This document shows positions 23,063 through 32,798 of a stretch of 64,000 nucleotides of DNA, one piece after another (position 1 is the stretch's first letter; each line of letters starts with the position of its first letter). The notes below the pieces were generated by a model, which saw nothing but the letters and a program-made list of their open reading frames with translations, did no database searches and had not been told where the DNA came from. The stretch is from Halorussus rarus. GTDB taxonomy: Archaea; Halobacteriota; Halobacteria; Halobacteriales; Haladaptataceae. The DNA lies in the NCBI RefSeq assembly GCF_003369835.1, contig NZ_QPMJ01000001.1, positions 682,001-746,000 of the forward strand, read 5' to 3'. A program made the translations under genes and the position numbers.

Positions 23063-24208
23063 ATGACGAAGATAGACCAAGGCAAGCGACAGTTCCTCAA
23101 GGTAGGCGGCGCGGGGCTCGTCGGTACCGGCCTGGCCGGCTGTCTCGGCGGCGGCAGCGGCGGGAGCGAGACGACGACCGAGGCCGACGAGACGACCACC
23201 GAGTCCGGCGGCGAGACGACCGACTCGGGGACGACCACCGAGGCGTCCGACTCCCTGAACGTCGGGATGGTGTACTCGACCGGCGGACTCGGCGACAACT
23301 CGTTCAACGACATGGCCCACAAGGGCATCAAGCAGGCCGAGTCCGAGTACGGCGTCACCTTCAAGAACGCCGAGCCGAGCAGTCCCTCCGACATCGCGAC
23401 GCTCCAGCGTCGGTTCGCCCAGTCGGGCGACTACGACCTCATCAGCTGCATCGGCGTCGGCCAGAACACCGCGCTCACCAAGAACGCCAAGCGGTTCTCC
23501 GACCAGAAGTTCATGGTCGTCGACACGGTGGTCGACCAGCCGAACGTCTCGAGCTACACGTTCAAGGAGCACCAGGGCTCGTTCCAGGTCGGCCACCTCG
23601 CCGGGCTGCTGACCCAGCAGGACTTCAGCGCCGGGGCGGGCCAGACCACGGATACCGCGTCCGTCGGGTTCGTCGGCGGCAAGGAGATCCCGCTCATCAA
23701 GAAGTTCGAGGCCGGGTTCAAGGCCGGCGCGAAGCACGTCAGCACCGACATCGAGTTCCGGTCTGCGTACGCCGGCACGTGGAGCGACCCGGGCCAGGGC
23801 CAGTCGATCGCCAACTCGATGTACAACAACGGCGCCGACATCGTCTACCACGCCGCGGGCGGCACCGGCAACGGCGTGTTCAAGGCGGCCCAGAACCAGG
23901 GCCGGTACGCCATCGGCGTCGACGCCGACCAGTCCAAGACGCTGCCGGACTACGCGGACGTCATCCTGGCGAGCATGGTCAAGCAGGTCGACGAGGCGGT
24001 CTACCGGTCGGTCGAGAACACCGTGAACGGGAACTTCGACGGCGGGTCGTCCCACAGCCTCGGACTCGAGGCGGGCGGCGTCGAGGCGGTGTACGGCCAG
24101 CAGCTCGGCTCGGAGATCCCCGACGACGTCAAGTCGAAGCTCGAGTCCTCGCGCGAGAAGATCGTCGCGGGCGACATCGAGGTCCCGACCGACCCGAAGA
24201 ACGCCTGA
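23063..24208 (+). CDS. BMP-family nucleoside-binding lipoprotein (anchored copy)
   Basis: This basic-membrane-protein type substrate-binding protein has 381 residues. The signal contains KRQFLK, a Tat motif with Lys in place of the first Arg, and the lipobox LAGC with Cys27. A Thr/Glu-rich linker (about 33-62) follows, then the BMP domain starting LNVGMVYSTGGLGDNSFNDMA. Such proteins bind purine and pyrimidine nucleosides. The next gene is a close paralog without the lipobox. ATPase, two permeases, cdd and udp follow, which supports a nucleoside substrate. Confidence 0.92.
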   Translation: MTKIDQGKRQFLKVGGAGLVGTGLAGCLGGGSGGSETTTEADETTTESGGETTDSGTTTEASDSLNVGMVYSTGGLGDNSFNDMAHKGIKQAESEYGVTFKNAEPSSPSDIATLQRRFAQSGDYDLISCIGVGQNTALTKNAKRFSDQKFMVVDTVVDQPNVSSYTFKEHQGSFQVGHLAGLLTQQDFSAGAGQTTDTASVGFVGGKEIPLIKKFEAGFKAGAKHVSTDIEFRSAYAGTWSDPGQGQSIANSMYNNGADIVYHAAGGTGNGVFKAAQNQGRYAIGVDADQSKTLPDYADVILASMVKQVDEAVYRSVENTVNGNFDGGSSHSLGLEAGGVEAVYGQQLGSEIPDDVKSKLESSREKIVAGDIEVPTDPKNA

Positions 24209-24302
24209 ACGGGCTCTCTGCGGTCGCTCTTCTCTCTTTCGCGCCGTCTGTCTCTCAACAAAGCGTCGCTTTCATGACCGTCGGCGCTGAAGTCCGTGTG
24301 GT

Positions 24303-25379
24303 ATGTGGGGGAGAAACACGCGACGACGCCGATTCTTGCGAGCGCTGGGCGGGACGGCCGCGCTCGGGACGACCGGGTTCCTGCAGGACAGCACGACCAA
24401 CGTCGGGATGGTGTACGCCACCGGCGGGCTGGGCGACAACTCGTTCAACGACATGGCCCACACCGGGGTCCAGCGGGCCGCCGAGCAGTTCGACGTGGAG
24501 TTCCAGAACGCCGAACCGGGGAGTCCGAGCGACGTGACGTCGCTCCAGCGCCGGTTCGCCCGGTCGCAGAACCCGGACTACGACCTGATCTGCTGCATCG
24601 GGTTCGTGCAGGCCGAGGGGCTCCAGCGCAACGCCCAGCGGTTCCGCGACCAGCGGTTCATGGTGGTCGACACGGTAGTCGAACAGCCCAACGTGGCGAG
24701 CTACACGTTCAAGGAGCACCAAGGCTCGTTCCAGGTCGGTCACCTCGCGGGGCTGATGACGACGATGGACTTCAGCGCCGGGGCGGGCCAGACCAACGAC
24801 GCGACGACCGTCGGGTTCGTCGGCGGCCAGGAGGTCCCGCTCATCAAGAAGTTCGAGGCGGGCTACATGGCGGGCGTCAAGCACGCGAACCCCGACGTCG
24901 ACGTGCTCTCGGCGTACGCCGGGTCGTTCAGCGACCCCGCGCAGGGCCAGTCGATCGCCAACTCGATGTACAACAACGGCGCCGACATCATCTACCACGC
25001 GGCGGGCGGCACCGGCAACGGCGTGTTCCGGGCGGCCCAGAACCAGGGCCGGTACGGCATCGGCGTCGACGCCGACCAGTCACAGAGCCTGTCGGACTAC
25101 GCCAACGTGATACTGGCGAGCATGGTCAAACACGTCGACAACGCCGTCTTCCGGTCCATCCGCGGGGTCGTCGAGGGCAACTTCGAGGGCGGCTCGGTCA
25201 ATCGGCTCGGGCTGGAGCAGAACGGCGTCGAGGCGGTGTACGGCCAGCAGCTGGGGTCCGAGATTCCCCAGGAGGTCAAGTCCGCGCTCCAGCAGTCCGA
25301 GCGGCGGATCGTGAACGGCGAGATCGAGGTGCCGACCGCACCGGCACAGGTCGGGCAGTCGACGACCACAACGCAGTGA
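24303..25379 (+). CDS. BMP-family nucleoside-binding protein (copy without lipobox)
   Basis: This 358-residue paralog of the preceding gene has most residues in the mature domain identical by eye, including SFNDMAH, SYTFKEHQGSFQVGHLAGL and GQSIANSMYNNGADI. The N-terminus has a strong Tat motif, RRRRFLRALGG, but no cysteine follows and the Thr-rich linker is absent. The protein is therefore predicted to be exported folded and either released or kept by an uncleaved helix. The 94-bp gap after the first copy and same strand suggest tandem duplication and cotranscription. Confidence 0.9.
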   Translation: MWGRNTRRRRFLRALGGTAALGTTGFLQDSTTNVGMVYATGGLGDNSFNDMAHTGVQRAAEQFDVEFQNAEPGSPSDVTSLQRRFARSQNPDYDLICCIGFVQAEGLQRNAQRFRDQRFMVVDTVVEQPNVASYTFKEHQGSFQVGHLAGLMTTMDFSAGAGQTNDATTVGFVGGQEVPLIKKFEAGYMAGVKHANPDVDVLSAYAGSFSDPAQGQSIANSMYNNGADIIYHAAGGTGNGVFRAAQNQGRYGIGVDADQSQSLSDYANVILASMVKHVDNAVFRSIRGVVEGNFEGGSVNRLGLEQNGVEAVYGQQLGSEIPQEVKSALQQSERRIVNGEIEVPTAPAQVGQSTTTTQ

Positions 25380-27097: not shown

Positions 27098-28476
27098 GTT
27101 CGAGCGGTCCCGACGACGCGCCGGACCGCGACGACGGTGACGAGACCGACCCGAATCCGGAGGACTCGTGGCAGGGCCGGGCCGACCGCGCGCTCGGGCG
27201 GCTGGTCGACGCCTCCGCGGTCGAACGGATCCTCATCAGCCTCGCGGCGCTCGCGCTGTCGGTGGTCGTCGGCGCGCTGGTCGTGCTCGCGTCGGGGTGG
27301 GTGGCGACCTGCGACTCGCCGTTCTTCGCCGCCTCCGGCGTCGGGTCGTTCTGCTACGACCCGGTCGCGGTCTACCGGGTCATGCTCGGCGGCGCGCTGT
27401 TCCCGTCGTACAACTTCGCGCTCACGCTCAAGGAGACGACGCTGCTGCTGTTCACGGGGCTGGCGGTCGCGGTCTCGTTCCGCGCCGGGATGTTCAACAT
27501 CGGGACCCAGGGCCAGCTGGTGCTGGGCGCGCTCGGGACCGCGCTGGCGGTCGTCTGGGTGGCGCCGGTGGTCCCCGCGGGCGCGGTGGGCGGGCTGATC
27601 CTGATAACCGTCGGCCTGCTCGCCGGCGCCGTCGTCGGCGGCATCTGGGGGGCGATTCCGGGCGCGCTGAAGGCCTACGCCGACGCCAACGAGGTCATCA
27701 CGACCATCATGCTCAACTTCGTGGCGTCGGGCATCGCGTTCACGCTGGTCTCGGAGGTGTTCAAGGACCCCAACAGCCAGACCGTCCAGACCCGGGCGGT
27801 CCCGGAGTTCGCGCGGTTCCAGCCGGTCTTCTTCGGGGAGTCGGTGTTCTCGTTCTCGGCCTACGCGCTGGTCGGGGCGCTCGCGCTGGCGGGTGCCATC
27901 TACTGGATGCTCAACGGGACCTCGTTCGGGTACGACCTCCGGACGAGCGGCGTCCAGCCGGAGGCCGCCGAGTACGGCGGCGTCGACGCCGAGCGGACGA
28001 TGGTTTCGAGCATGGCGCTGTCGGGCGCCATCGGCGGGCTCGGCGGCGCGGTGTACGTCCTGATGGTCGCCTCGCGGTGGCGAACCGGAATCCCGTCGCT
28101 GGGCTTCGACGGCATCACCGTCTCCATCCTCGCGGGCAACAACCCGCTGGGGGTCATCCCGGCGGCGCTGCTGTTCGGCGCGCTCAAGACCGGGAGCCTC
28201 TCCATCGAGTTCCAGCTCGCGGTGCCCAAACAGCTGGTCGGGGTCCTGCGCGGGCTCATCATCCTGTTCGTCGCCATGCCGGAGTTCTTCCGGATGGTCG
28301 GCGCGCGGTTCCGGTTCGGCGAGGAGCAGCCGTCGGTGGCGACCGACGGCGGCGGCGGAACTGGGGGCGACAGCGTCGAAGGGACCACAGACGGCCCGGT
28401 CGGCGGGCAGACGGACGCCCTTGACGGCGAGACGACCGACGCCGCCGGCGACGACCGCGGGGGTGACGACCGATGA
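27094..28476 (+). CDS. Nucleoside ABC importer permease 1 (BPD_transp_2 family)
   Basis: The 460-residue membrane protein is YufP-like. An acidic cytoplasmic N-terminus of about 35 residues precedes roughly ten helices; the family core is FRAGMFNIGTQGQLVLGA, KAYADANEVITTIMLNF and GFDGITVSILAGNNPLG. A 50-residue Asp/Gly/Thr-rich tail follows the last helix. It overlaps both neighbours by 4 bp and pairs with the second permease as a heterodimer. Confidence 0.92.
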   Translation: MSSSGPDDAPDRDDGDETDPNPEDSWQGRADRALGRLVDASAVERILISLAALALSVVVGALVVLASGWVATCDSPFFAASGVGSFCYDPVAVYRVMLGGALFPSYNFALTLKETTLLLFTGLAVAVSFRAGMFNIGTQGQLVLGALGTALAVVWVAPVVPAGAVGGLILITVGLLAGAVVGGIWGAIPGALKAYADANEVITTIMLNFVASGIAFTLVSEVFKDPNSQTVQTRAVPEFARFQPVFFGESVFSFSAYALVGALALAGAIYWMLNGTSFGYDLRTSGVQPEAAEYGGVDAERTMVSSMALSGAIGGLGGAVYVLMVASRWRTGIPSLGFDGITVSILAGNNPLGVIPAALLFGALKTGSLSIEFQLAVPKQLVGVLRGLIILFVAMPEFFRMVGARFRFGEEQPSVATDGGGGTGGDSVEGTTDGPVGGQTDALDGETTDAAGDDRGGDDR

Positions 28477-29507
28477 GCTACGCCGGCCCCTCGCGGAAGC
28501 GCCGCTGGCTCGGGGGCGCGGCGGCCCTGGTCGCGCTCGTGCTGGTCGCGGTCGAGCTGTTCTTCCCGGAGAGCCCGGTGTCGGAGATCGTCCGCATCGT
28601 CGACGCGAACTACGTGCGAGCGGTGCTGCGGCTCGCGGTCCCCATCGCGTTCGCGGCGCTCGGCGGCATCTTCGCCGAGAAGAGCGGCGTCATCAACATC
28701 GGACTCGAGGGGCTGCTCATCATCTCGGCGTTCACCTCGGTCGCGGTGGCCGCGACCATTGGCGGCGGGAGCCCCACGCAACTCGAGCTGTGGCTCGGTT
28801 TCTGGGCCGCGGTACTGGCGAGCGTGCTGTTCTCGCTGCTGTTCGCGGTCGTCTGTATCGAGTTCAAGGCCGACCAGATCATCGCCGGCCTGGCGGTCTG
28901 GCTCATCGCGCTCGGCCTCGCGCCGTTCGCGAGCAAGGTCATCTGGGGCCAGGTCAACAGCCCGCCGGTCGCCACGCTGAACAACTTCGACCTGCTGGTG
29001 GCCGAGGTGAACCCGCCGGTCGTGATGATGCTGGTCGCGGTGCCCGCGGCGTGGTACGCGCTGAACCGGACCGCCTTCGGTCGGTGGATCGAGGCCAGCG
29101 GGGAGAACCCGAAGGCGCTCGATACCGTGGGCGTCGACGTCCGGAAGGTGCGGTACTCGGGCGTGCTGCTGTCCGGGTTTTTCTCGGGGCTCGGCGGCGC
29201 CGGCCTGGCGCTCGGTCGCGTCGGCCAGTTCATCGGCGGCGGGGCGACGATGGTCAACGGCCGGGGCTGGATCGGCATCACGGCGCTGCTGTTCGGCAAC
29301 TACAACCCGCTCGGGGCGTTCGGCGCGTCGTTCCTGTTCGCGAGCCTGGACGCGCTCCAGATCCGGCTCCAGCAGCTCGGCTACAGCATCCCGAGCGAGC
29401 TCATCGGCATCATCCCGTACGTGACCGTGGTCGTGGTGCTGGCGTTCGTCGGTCACACCCGGATTCCGGACGCCGCGGGCGAGCACTACGAGTCCGGCGA
29501 GGAGTAG
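28473..29507 (+). CDS. Nucleoside ABC importer permease 2 (BPD_transp_2 family)
   Basis: The 344-residue membrane protein is YufQ-like, with about eight to ten helices. Core motifs are FAEKSGVINIGLEGLLIISA, KADQIIAGLAVWLIALGL and NGRGWIGITALLFGNYNPLG. It is last in the SBP-SBP-ATPase-permease-permease series and starts within the previous gene (ATGA). A hairpin repeat and cdd follow. Confidence 0.93.
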   Translation: MSYAGPSRKRRWLGGAAALVALVLVAVELFFPESPVSEIVRIVDANYVRAVLRLAVPIAFAALGGIFAEKSGVINIGLEGLLIISAFTSVAVAATIGGGSPTQLELWLGFWAAVLASVLFSLLFAVVCIEFKADQIIAGLAVWLIALGLAPFASKVIWGQVNSPPVATLNNFDLLVAEVNPPVVMMLVAVPAAWYALNRTAFGRWIEASGENPKALDTVGVDVRKVRYSGVLLSGFFSGLGGAGLALGRVGQFIGGGATMVNGRGWIGITALLFGNYNPLGAFGASFLFASLDALQIRLQQLGYSIPSELIGIIPYVTVVVVLAFVGHTRIPDAAGEHYESGEE

Positions 29508-29571
29508 CGCCCGCGTGTTCCGTCGCCGGACTCTGTTGCTGCCCCGCATACTGCGACCGCTCCATGCTGTC

Positions 29572-29682
29572 GGCTCAGCCCTCTCGGGGTAGTCGGACTG
29601 GCGGTCCCCAGTGCGCGCAGACTGCCCTCCTTCGGGACCGCGCGAGGCGTCCGGCCGAGATTCGTCCCGACTTCGCATTTCA
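29572..29682 (+). repeat. Hairpin repeat R2, copy A (inward-facing)
   Basis: A 111-bp element starting GGCTCAGCCCTCTCGGGG and ending CTTCGCATTT. Three nested stems are visible: TCTCGG (29582-29587) with CCGAGA (29655-29660), CGGAC (29594-29598) with GTCCG (29649-29653), and GCGGTC (29601-29606) with GACCGC (29636-29641). The reverse-complement copy at 31788-31885 keeps the stems while the apical loop differs. The two copies bracket cdd, a lipoprotein gene and udp. Confidence 0.85.
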
Positions 29683-29730
29683 ACCTTCGGGACTCGCTTT
29701 CGCTCGCAAGGACCTGTCGGGCGAGGGCGG

Positions 29731-29738
29731 GAGATATA
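29731..29738 (+). promoter_or_regulatory. TATA element of cdd
   Basis: GAGATATAT lies about 30 nt before the cdd ATG at 29767, giving cdd its own promoter separate from the importer genes upstream. Confidence 0.5.
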
Positions 29739-29766
29739 TGGCCCGCGCCTCCCAACCTCCACCACC

Positions 29767-30153
29767 ATGGACGAACTCATCGAGGCCGCCCGCGAGGTGC
29801 AGGACGAGGCCCACGTCCCCTACTCGGACTACCCGGTCGGCGCGGCGCTCCGGACCGCCGACGGCAGCGTCTACGTCGGCTGCAACATCGAGAACGCCAA
29901 CTACAGTAACTCCCTCCACGCCGAGGAGGTCGCGGTCGCGGAGGCGGTCAAGCAGGGCCACCGCGAGTTCGACGCGCTGGCGGTGAGTTCGGGCCGGCGC
30001 GACGGCGTGACCCCCTGCGGGATGTGCCGCCAGACGCTCTCGGAGTTCTGCGACGACGACATGCCGGTGGTCTGCGACGAGGGCGACGACGTCGCGGAGT
30101 ACACGCTCGGCGAGCTCCTGCCGAACACCATCACCGAGGAGATGCTGGAGTAA
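29767..30153 (+). CDS. cdd: Cytidine deaminase
   Basis: The 128-residue enzyme deaminates cytidine and deoxycytidine to uridine. The zinc site is complete: HAEE (51-54) and PCGMC (83-87). NIENANYSNSLHAEE is the homotetrameric Cdd signature, and length fits. Its product uridine is the substrate of the Udp encoded 600 bp downstream. The longer frame upstream of 29767 overlaps repeat R2 and is not used. Confidence 0.95.
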   Translation: MDELIEAAREVQDEAHVPYSDYPVGAALRTADGSVYVGCNIENANYSNSLHAEEVAVAEAVKQGHREFDALAVSSGRRDGVTPCGMCRQTLSEFCDDDMPVVCDEGDDVAEYTLGELLPNTITEEMLE

Positions 30154-30167
30154 CGACCTCGAATCGG

Positions 30168-30641
30168 CTACTCCGCCGAGACGTCCGGGAAGCAGTTGAA
30201 CTCGACCGTCACCGAATCCAGGGGTTCGTCGCGGGCGTTCACCGCGACGATCCTGTACTGGTTGTGGAGCGGTCGCTCGCCGAGGTACTGCTCGTACAGC
30301 AGCTGTCCCTCCCCGACCCGGTCCTTGTTCGCCATCAGGTCGGCGTCGCCCGCCGAGACCGGAACCACGTACGCCAGCTCACCGGACGCACCGTAGACCC
30401 GGAGCGAATCGACCCCCTTCGAGCGCACGTCGTCCAGGTACAACGGAACCGACAGTCTGACGTCGTCGTCCTTGACGTAGGCCTGCGCCCCGTTGTCGAG
30501 AACGTCCCCGTCTCCGTGTTCGAGCGCACCGGTCTGGCAGTCGATCGTGTCCGAGCCGCCCGATTCGGCGGCGCTACAGCCCGCGAGCCCGGCGGCGGTC
30601 GCGCCACCGAGAGCGGCGAGAAGCTTGCGTCTGGAGGGCAT
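30168..30641 (-). CDS. Haloarchaeal Tat lipoprotein of unknown function
   Basis: The 157-residue product has a Tat motif, SRRKLLAALGG (3-13), and lipobox GLAGC with Cys22. The mature part (about 135 residues) looks beta-rich, with VRLSVPLYLDDVRSKGV and RIVAVNARDEPLDSVTVEF. No family is recognised. A GTG three bases upstream of the ATG would add one residue. It lies on the opposite strand between cdd and udp, converging with cdd with only a 14-bp gap. Confidence 0.75.
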   Translation of the reverse strand: MPSRRKLLAALGGATAAGLAGCSAAESGGSDTIDCQTGALEHGDGDVLDNGAQAYVKDDDVRLSVPLYLDDVRSKGVDSLRVYGASGELAYVVPVSAGDADLMANKDRVGEGQLLYEQYLGERPLHNQYRIVAVNARDEPLDSVTVEFNCFPDVSAE

Positions 30642-30714
30642 CACTCTGAACTCTCACACGGCCTCCATGAGTGTTTTCCTGTCGACACCACGCCGCCCCG
30701 GGGCGCGACGAACC

Positions 30715-30722
30715 CTTTATAC
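30715..30722 (+). promoter_or_regulatory. TATA element of udp
   Basis: CTTTATAC lies about 28-30 nt before the udp ATG at 30747, indicating a leaderless or nearly leaderless transcript. Confidence 0.55.
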
Positions 30723-30746
30723 TCGCCGACCGAGTCAGCCAACGGC

Positions 30747-31568
30747 ATGACCGGCGACAGCGAAGACCCCAACGACGACGTGCAGTACCACATCGAGGTC
30801 GGCGAGGGCGACGTTGCCGACGCGGTCCTCCTGCCGGGCAATCCCGAGCGCATCGAGAAGATAACCCAGTTCTGGGACTCGGCCGAGGAGGTGGCCCGCC
30901 ACCGCGAGTACCGGACCGTCACGGGCGAGTACGAGGGGACGCCCGTCAGCGTCACCTCGACCGGCATCGGCAGCCCCTCGGCGGCAATCGCGGTCGAGGA
31001 ACTCGCCCGGGTCGGCGCGGACACCTTCATCCGCGTGGGGTCGTGCGGCGCCATCCAGCCCGACATGGCGGTCGGCGACCTCGTCATCTCGACCGGCGGC
31101 GTCCGCCAGGAGGGCACCAGCGACGCGTACGTCCGGGAGGACTACCCCGCCGTCGCCGACTACGAGGTCGTCTCCGCACTCGTCGCGGCCGCCGAACGTC
31201 TGGGCTACGACTACCACACCGGCGTCACGATGAGCGCCGACAGCTTCTACGCCGGTCAGGGCCGGCCGGGGTTCGAGGGGTTCGAGGCCGCGGGCAGCGA
31301 CGAACTCGTCGAGACGCTGAAGGACGCGAACGTCAAGAACATCGAGATGGAGGCCTCCGCCATCATGACGCTGGCCAGCATCTACGGCCTCCGGGCGGGT
31401 GCGGTCTGCTCGGTGTTCGCCAACCGTGAGACCGGCGAGTTCCTGACCGAGGGCGAGAACCGCGCGGCCGAGACCGCGAGCCTCGCGGTGAAGCTGCTCG
31501 CGCAGATGGACGCGACGAAGGCGGAGGCCGGCGTCGAGCGGTGGCATTCTGGTCTCAGCCTCGACTGA
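30747..31568 (+). CDS. udp: Uridine phosphorylase-type nucleoside phosphorylase
   Basis: The NP-I family enzyme of 273 residues splits uridine (and possibly other nucleosides) with phosphate to base and ribose 1-phosphate. Landmarks are VLLPGNPERIEKI (28-40), TGIGSPSAAIAVEEL, RVGSCGAI (phosphate site) and NIEMEASAIMTLA (the Glu-Met-Glu ribose site). Context with Cdd and a nucleoside importer supports a pyrimidine role. The last 18 codons recur, diverged, 191 bp downstream. Confidence 0.92.
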   Translation: MTGDSEDPNDDVQYHIEVGEGDVADAVLLPGNPERIEKITQFWDSAEEVARHREYRTVTGEYEGTPVSVTSTGIGSPSAAIAVEELARVGADTFIRVGSCGAIQPDMAVGDLVISTGGVRQEGTSDAYVREDYPAVADYEVVSALVAAAERLGYDYHTGVTMSADSFYAGQGRPGFEGFEAAGSDELVETLKDANVKNIEMEASAIMTLASIYGLRAGAVCSVFANRETGEFLTEGENRAAETASLAVKLLAQMDATKAEAGVERWHSGLSLD

Positions 31569-31698
31569 GCGCCACTGTACTGCGAGCGAACGAAGTGAGC
31601 GAGCAGCGCTTTTTGGTCCGGATTTTCGCGCCGAGCGGTACCCGCAACTCCGAGCGCCGCGAGGGGTGAGGATACCCGAGACGGAAAAAGGTGGGATC

Positions 31699-31759
31699 GG
31701 ACGCGACGAAGGCGGAGGCGGACGTCGAGTGGTGGCACCCCGGGCTGAGTTTGGAATAG
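31699..31759 (+). pseudogene. Diverged duplicate of the udp 3' end
   Basis: Bases 31699-31759 align without gaps to 31508-31568, offset 191. Both read DATKAEA-x-VE-x-WH-x-GLSL-x and then stop (TGA in udp, TAG here). Of the changed codons, several are synonymous (GCC/GCG, GGT/GGG, CTC/CTG, AGC/AGT, CTC/TTG) and the residue changes are few, so this tail evolved as coding sequence before being cut off. No start or body precedes it. The gap from udp to the next gene (333 bp) otherwise holds a palindromic stretch with TTTTT (31587-31615), a probable udp terminator, and repeat R2. Confidence 0.85.
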
Positions 31760-31787
31760 CTCCCACGGCGTCGTCTGCGAGATTTTA

Positions 31788-31885
31788 AATGCGAAGGCGG
31801 GACGAATCTCGGCCGGACGCCTCGCGCGGTCGGCCAGAGTCGGCACCTGCGACCGCCAGTCCGACTACCCCGAGAGGGCTGAGCC
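31788..31885 (-). repeat. Hairpin repeat R2, copy B (inverted)
   Basis: This is the reverse complement of copy A at 29572-29682. Read on the minus strand it starts GGCTCAGCCCTCTCGGGG and ends CTTCGCATTT; the three nested stems are kept, with the inner stem lengthened by one pair (GCGGTCG/CGACCGC), while the loop sequence and length differ. The AT-rich ends of both copies face each other across cdd-udp. Confidence 0.85.
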
Positions 31886-31901
31886 CTTCCCCCCGACCCC
31901 G

Positions 31902-32798
31902 TCACTCGTCGTCGCGGTCCGCCGCCCGCACCGACAGGACCGGCACCTCCGAGGTCCGGACGACCTTCGCGGCGGTGCTGCCCATGAAGTACCGGTCGAA
32001 TCCGGTCCGGCCGTGGGTCCCCATCGCGACCAGGTCCACGCCCTCTTCGTCGACGTAGTCGACCAGCCCGCTCGCCGGGACGCCCTCTCCGACCGCGGTC
32101 GTGGCGTCGAGCCCCGCCTCGCGCGCCCGCTCGGCGATGGCGTCGGTCGCCTCGCGACCCTGCTCTTCGAGCCGCGACAGCAGGCCGGTTTCGCCGGGGG
32201 CGTCCGATGCGGTGGCCGCGGCTCGGATGTCGACGACGTACACCGCGTGGACGGTCGCGTCGAACTTCTCGGCGACCGCGATGCCGTGGTCGACCGCGAG
32301 CTCCGCGCAGTCGCTGCCGTCGGTCGGAATCATGACGTCGTCGTAGCCGTCGTCGAGGACGCTGCGTTCGGTCGCCCGTACCGTGAACACCGGCACCTCC
32401 GAGAGCCGGACGATGCGCTCGGCCACGCTCCCCATGACGTACCGGTTCACGCCGGTCCGACCGTGCGTTCCCATGAAGACGAGGTCCACATCGTGTTCGT
32501 CGGCGTAGGCGAGGATGCCCTTCGAGGGTCTGTTCCGGACGACCGCGGTCTGAACGTCGTCGCCCGGTTCGGCCAGCGCTTCGAGGTCCGCGATGATGTC
32601 GCGGGCCTCGTCTTCGAGACGGCCGACGAACGCCTCGTCGACGCCGCCCGCGCTGAACAGTCCGCCCGCGTCCTGGACGTCGACCACGTTGATGAGGTGG
32701 ACCGTCGCGTCGAACGCCCGTGCCAGGGTCAGCGCGTGCTCGGCCGCGCGCTCTGCGTGTTCGCTGCCGTCGGTCGGAACGAGGAGCGTGTCGTACAT
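31902..32798 (-). CDS. Tandem universal stress protein (two UspA domains)
   Basis: The 298-residue protein contains two Usp domains. Each begins with a strand and PTDGS (8-12 and near 159-163) and ends with the ATP-binding pattern GTHGRTGxxRYxMGS (near 109 and 252). That pattern matches ATP-binding Usp proteins. The exact stress role is unknown. It has its own upstream region of about 100 bp before the aminotransferase stop on the same strand. Confidence 0.93.
   Translation of the reverse strand: MYDTLLVPTDGSEHAERAAEHALTLARAFDATVHLINVVDVQDAGGLFSAGGVDEAFVGRLEDEARDIIADLEALAEPGDDVQTAVVRNRPSKGILAYADEHDVDLVFMGTHGRTGVNRYVMGSVAERIVRLSEVPVFTVRATERSVLDDGYDDVMIPTDGSDCAELAVDHGIAVAEKFDATVHAVYVVDIRAAATASDAPGETGLLSRLEEQGREATDAIAERAREAGLDATTAVGEGVPASGLVDYVDEEGVDLVAMGTHGRTGFDRYFMGSTAAKVVRTSEVPVLSVRAADRDDE

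Follow-up and report, generated by a model that had tools for sequence, protein, structure and literature searches.

Two inverted repeats around the cdd-udp genes

In Halorussus rarus, a block of cdd, a lipoprotein-like gene and udp comes after importer genes and lies between two copies, A and B, of a repeat named R2. What are these repeats doing at the locus? An earlier note likened the layout to a cassette moved or flipped by recombination between the repeats, which may have brought the catabolic genes to the importer. Comparison of the sequences leads us to consider another answer probable, though well short of certain: R2 would be a multi-copy small-RNA gene, most likely acting as antisense on 3′ untranslated regions (UTRs) when its regulon is on. 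The features are given below in coordinates of the window, the whole stretch of 64,000 nucleotides analysed.

28473..29507, plus strand: importer permease gene; its 3′ end is faced by copy A, with the stop codon 64 nt before R2
29570..29695, minus strand: R2 copy A (126 bits); putative RNA strand minus, converging on the importer permease gene
29572..29652, minus strand: predicted small RNA A, starting at 29652, the first G of GGACG
29661..29683, minus strand: promoter module of copy A, with the TATA region and the CGAAG, CGGGAC and AA elements; the regulon pattern is matched without any mismatch
29767..30153, plus strand: cdd, outside the element; cytidine deaminase according to the earlier note
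30168..30644, minus strand: lipoprotein-like gene, outside the element
30747..31568, plus strand: udp, outside the element; uridine phosphorylase-like, with a homologue in all genomes searched
31772..31887, plus strand: R2 copy B (121 bits); putative RNA strand plus, converging on the usp gene
31784..31806, plus strand: promoter module of copy B; likewise free of mismatches to the pattern
31815..31885, plus strand: predicted small RNA B, starting at 31815
31902..32798, minus strand: universal-stress-protein-like (usp) gene; its 3′ end is faced by copy B, with the stop codon 16 nt before R2

The starts of small RNAs A and B are taken from the 31-nt offset of leaderless genes described later, and we infer the 3′ ends (near 29572 for RNA A) from where conservation stops.

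Two pairs of inverted arms connect the copies. The pair 29572-29614 and 31843-31885 (43 nt) is 93% complementary, and the pair 29636-29683 and 31784-31831 (48 nt) is 96% complementary; no other inverted repeats in the whole 64-kb window are as strong as these two. The arms are conserved between copies A and B, whereas the intervening loop differs. The arm alignments and gene positions confirm the arrangement first described, i.e., reverse-complement repeats with diverged loops flanking cdd-lipoprotein-udp. Among the three nested stems proposed at the same time, the inner CGGAC/GTCCG and GCGGTC/GACCGC stems hold, but the outer CTCGG/CCGAG stem is without compensatory change.

Two further repeats are observed around the locus. 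A 51-nt direct repeat (84%, 31508-31558 and 31699-31749) partly duplicates the end of udp about 190 bp downstream, before copy B. Upstream of the importer, two binding-protein genes stand in tandem (23063-25379), apparently as a result of duplication (83% identity over one 300-nt block).

Distribution and origin of the R2 family

A BLASTN search of the whole H. rarus genome (G000, 4.37 Mb) finds dispersed R2 copies on the two largest contigs. With a covariance model, 14 copies score above 100 bits in this genome, followed by a sharp drop to 34 bits. The model also matches all 17 same-genus genomes searched, with 2-28 matches per genome. When the exact R2 pattern is scanned against 84,980 species genomes, matches are confined to Halorussus genomes and one metagenome-assembled genome (SW_6_65_15). 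Rfam gives no match at the gathering level or at E ≤ 1 for the window, or at E ≤ 0.5 for four single-copy loci, and no description of the family is found in the literature searched, which largely excluded subscription papers. R2 would be an apparently undescribed small-RNA gene family with about 14 copies in this genome.

Outside the genus, 10 genomes among the 293 of the order that were searched have an R2 match at E ≤ 1e-6, one apiece. All eight non-genus copies examined (G022, G186, G164, G044, G065, G045, G117 and G250) share one position, immediately 3′ of the same aminotransferase gene, and an ArsA/Get3-like ATPase gene follows in most of them. Further single copies of this kind are found in G020 and G019, and G127 has a further sequence match. 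Within Halorussus, the aminotransferase site holds R2 in H. rarus, G002, G004, G006, G007, G010, G011, G014, G015 and G017 and a truncated R2 in G005; no R2 is found at this site in G003 and G009. We infer that the aminotransferase locus is the ancestral R2 site and that the family was amplified within Halorussus.

Sixteen R2 site families are common to at least two of nine Halorussus genomes. The nearest loop belongs to the copy's own genome in 32 of 92 cases, where 10.5 would be expected. This homogenisation is partial and strongest in G002, and full concerted evolution of R2 is rejected on that ground.

Gene order and inversions at cdd-udp in relatives

The importer-cdd-udp order is present in another family (G030, locus L075), where the model detects no R2, and in the Halorussus genomes G005, G009, G013 and G014, again without a detected copy at the locus. 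A copy 5′ of cdd is found in H. rarus, G002, G003, G004, G007 and G015. In G008 and G010, cdd and the only R2 copy of this locus are inverted together, with udp in place. In G012 (L068, G012:C160:1-12338), the udp-lipoprotein-cdd block is inverted between two inverted R2 copies and adjoins a divergent nucleoside-type importer (permB 58% and abcA 74% identical); the usual right-flank genes are not found on this 22-kb contig.

Because the order is kept in relatives without R2 detected at this place, delivery of the cdd-udp genes to the importer by R2 is not supported. The earlier note had itself named randomly scattered R2 copies and a gene order conserved without them as evidence against the cassette; the order is indeed conserved, and R2 is dispersed, but at gene 3′ ends and not at random. 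Flipping of the segment is borne out in G008, G010 and G012, while the repeats are probably not cassette ends, R2 being a dispersed family at mostly orthologous sites. In our judgement it is highly improbable that recombination at these repeats makes the block a mobile or flippable cassette. The inverted block of G012 between its inverted copies and the joint inversion of cdd and R2 in G008 and G010 would fit it, but an unchanged gene order where no R2 is detected, both in another family and in four Halorussus genomes, about a dozen R2 copies elsewhere in the genome, the divergent importer and missing right flank of G012, and the single R2 at this locus in G008 and G010 all argue against it. 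Recombination between R2 copies at cdd-udp may, at best, have taken place in the G012 lineage.

Predicted RNA structure and strand

The structure was analysed in an alignment of 94 copies from nine genomes, the best-scoring among the matches listed, in which diverged copies are under-represented. The local hairpin (CCC-TCTC-GGG) covaries strongly, and together with two inner helices it shows compensatory changes well above shuffles and slid controls. Over four helices, two-sided changes occur in 13 pairs (6.5 in shuffles) and 73 cells (23 in shuffles), a count that takes in a fourth helix later reassigned to a promoter dyad. In the three-helix alignment of the reverse strand the counts are 8 pairs (3.1 in shuffles) and 21 cells (5 in shuffles), above all shuffles. 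The helix reassigned in this way, CGGGA-TTCG-TCCCG on the forward strand, is paired in only 72% of cells. Kink-turn and C/D-box readings were discarded by eye, since the motifs misfit.

The strand of the RNA can be judged from the mismatches. On the forward strand, the three supported helices contain 49 A.C mismatches, 27 of them from one pair position, against 8 G.T mismatches, and this excess becomes wobble pairing when the reverse strand is read. Read in that direction, 79 of 94 copies also have a GNRA sequence in the hairpin loop. The wobble asymmetry, the GNRA loops and the promoter described below together suggest that the RNA strand is opposite to the gene preceding R2. The folding energy of R2 is ordinary relative to shuffles on either strand (z −0.1 to +0.7), so the structure rests on covariation; minimum-energy folds of RNAs A and B fail to reproduce the covarying structure. 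No U-run terminator follows the predicted RNA.

A promoter shared with leaderless genes

Upstream of the structure on the putative RNA strand, R2 contains, in order, a BRE-like CGAAGG (−36/−31), a TATA element TTYAAATA (−30/−23; its centre lies 26-27 nt ahead of the structure), CGAAG, CGGGAC and AA at −9/−8. The A at −9 is present in 91 of 94 copies and that at −8 in 81 of 94. These elements are close to those published for haloarchaea, namely BRE CGAAA, TATA TTWT and WW near −10 (PMC4983044), and to those of the halovirus HF2 repeats, where the TATA element is at −26 and the BRE occupies −33 to −37 (PMC8707807).

The pattern TTNAANTNCGANGNCGGGACSAA, with up to 2 mismatches, has 25 matches in the genome, compared with 1 for the reversed control. 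Twelve are R2 copies, recovered by construction because the pattern was derived from R2; the independent evidence lies in the other 13, which are non-R2. In the window, copies A and B are the only matches at up to 3 mismatches, and both have 0 mismatches. An in-frame start codon is found 31 or 32 nt after the pattern start in 10 of the 13 non-R2 matches. When the own-genome matches are pooled with 30 from six other genomes (two neighbouring sites being counted twice because their loci overlap), the offset is 31 in 21 cases and 32 in 5, with no more than 2 cases at any other offset from 20 to 60. This phase places the start site where leaderless genes have theirs; in R2 the predicted start is the first G of GGACG. 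R2 combines two features expected of a small-RNA gene, covarying structure on the presumed transcribed strand and a promoter of its own whose distance to the predicted RNA start is fixed.

Genes of the candidate regulon

The ten leaderless genes of H. rarus with the R2 promoter (L230, L231, L239, L240, L242-L245, L248 and L249) form the candidate regulon. Their products include a T2SSE/TadA-type ATPase, an archaeal type IV pilin, a DUF7283 protein, a PLD-domain protein (PLDc_2), a NucS N-terminal domain (NucS_N) with a Top1 zinc ribbon, DUF6735, TctA and small proteins. Several are uncharacterised, among them DUF6735, DUF7283 and a 50-aa cysteine-containing protein. For 7 of the 10 genes, homologues are found behind the same promoter in other genomes: in G004, in G022 (DUF7283) and in G028 (pilin). 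G004 adds DUF7310, a HerA-like ATPase and a weakly matching Cas4/PD-(D/E)XK nuclease. The promoter is common to pilus and DNA-processing genes, as would be expected of a DNA-uptake regulon, and the set looks like pilus and DNA-handling machinery. A role in DNA uptake is the obvious guess from annotation.

Other sites with an R2-type promoter were also observed. One lies about 240 nt before a DEAH helicase gene of the 'helicase/secretion neighborhood' type (TIGR03817) at G000:C1:1384418-1384440 (L233), and the leader of this gene opens GTG-ACG-TGA. A second, shorter RNA-like sequence (GTGACCTGAACCGGGCCGGGACGC...GCGCGGCGCGCGGCGTTCCGG...GCGCGCCGCC) stands behind such a promoter twice in H. rarus and also in G004, and starts with GTG, one codon and TGA at the leaderless position. 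Its sites are as follows.

G000:C2:1225017-1225039 (L229)
G000:C1:1438407-1438429 (L235)
G004:C1:2847295-2847317 (L266)

Placement of R2 at gene 3′ ends

The gene upstream of R2 is convergent with it in 81 of 92 copies (~88%), a per-copy count in which copies at orthologous sites are non-independent; with the orthologous site as the unit, the upstream gene is convergent in 21 of 25 families (p about 5e-4). Genes around the copies were called by a simple codon score. R2 follows the stop codon of the convergent gene with a modal spacing of 16-26 nt. The gene on the other side shows no orientation preference (50 to 42). About 12% of the copies face no gene end, and in G008 and G010, where the copy is inverted along with cdd, the convergent partner is lost. 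The convergent genes encode an aminotransferase, cutA-like and dodecin-like proteins and transporters, with no obvious common function.

Proposed mechanism and alternatives

We propose that each R2 copy is a haloarchaeal promoter followed by an RNA of ~70-140 nt that would start with GGACG and contain a stem, an upper arm that varies and, towards the 3′ end, a hairpin capped by GNRA. As the promoter is common to leaderless protein genes, the R2 RNAs and these genes are probably expressed at the same time. Most copies converge on a gene and end 16-60 nt past its stop codon, so that the RNA would be antisense to the 3′ UTR of that gene, and the sequence common among copies would make it partly complementary to 3′ UTRs at other sites. 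Such antisense pairing may alter the 3′-end formation, stability or translation of the mRNAs when the regulon is on. A bolder and rather doubtful extension is that one promoter type sets up a competence-like state, in which a pilus and DNA-handling machine is made along with at least ~14 antisense RNAs that reset the 3′ ends of housekeeping mRNAs.

Other explanations place the function elsewhere. R2 might be a small-RNA gene of the same regulon whose product works in trans by way of its loop or unpaired regions, with gene 3′ ends merely tolerated. This has some chance of being correct, given that the structure is conserved on the RNA strand, that the host genes are functionally mixed and that one locus is enough in other families. 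The convergent bias, with its mode of 16-26 nt after the stop codon kept at orthologous sites, would be unexpected if position were irrelevant. The strand of the conserved structure also bears on whether R2 is a hairpin terminator or a 3′ UTR stability element of the upstream gene, read on the forward strand. Hairpin-linked termination is known in Haloferax (PMC7237163), a precedent for this explanation, and R2, read in the direction of the gene, does follow closely on stop codons; but the wobble pairs and GNRA loops belong to the opposite strand, a T run is missing, and the conserved, complete promoter faces in the reverse direction, which makes it quite unlikely.

It is also unlikely, if less sharply so, that R2 is a mobile intergenic repeat of the MITE, ERIC or BOX kind, with an incidental promoter, spread by an unknown enzyme preferring gene ends. 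Discrete boundaries, dispersed copies, a variable modular loop, a copy number that differs among species and the partial homogenisation within genomes (32 of 92 nearest loops against 10.5) are all consistent with mobility. Against this, the flanks of the 94 copies are without terminal inverted repeats or a conserved flanking duplication, as judged by eye and column content, the sites are largely orthologous across the genus, the promoter is common to functional genes, and Y1, the sole transposase family searched, is absent from the genome. More specific forms were rejected: a REP element (surveyed in PMC12306157) mobilised by a Y1 (RAYT) transposase, for want of any Y1 transposase in the genome, and an IS605/TnpB guide RNA, for want of a conserved flanking tetranucleotide.

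Meaning and comparison with known systems

If transcribed as predicted, R2 would be an unusual multi-copy archaeal small-RNA family with a traceable origin, present as one locus in other haloarchaea and amplified in one genus. Placed as it is, R2 could influence many genes by way of their 3′ UTRs. Through its promoter it is linked to a conserved set of pilus and DNA-handling genes, and this offers a testable entry to a possible haloarchaeal DNA-uptake programme.

The bacterial ERIC, BOX and REP repeats are short, structured, multi-copy elements often located in 3′ flanks, and ERIC and BOX are modular in length. R2 resembles them in all these respects, including modular length variation, but differs in its complete promoter, one-strand covariation, orthologous sites and single-copy locus outside the genus. 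The streptococcal csRNAs are homologous multi-copy small RNAs under one regulator and one promoter type and are linked to competence. Several homologous RNAs would likewise be co-controlled by one promoter type in R2, which, unlike the csRNAs, is archaeal, unrelated in sequence, placed in convergent antisense and larger in copy number. In phage phiH, an archaeal antisense RNA reportedly acts on transcript processing, according to work by Stolt and Zillig in 1993. It provides a haloarchaeal precedent for antisense action on mRNA processing, though as a phage system with a single locus it is unlike R2.

Haloarchaeal 3′ UTRs set the direction of translational control (PMC2636863). Among haloarchaeal regulatory small RNAs, Haloferax sRNA132 (PMC6560208) is, like R2, an intergenic RNA gene with a haloarchaeal promoter, whereas R2 has ~14 homologous copies, a promoter shared with a regulon, convergent placement at gene 3′ ends and no Rfam match. 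The promoter-bearing intergenic repeats of halovirus HF2 (PMC8707807) are also dispersed, with BRE and TATA elements at the same spacing and positions conserved among relatives. Those repeats are 29-58 bp promoters of viral genes, whereas R2 is chromosomal and appears to drive a structured RNA.
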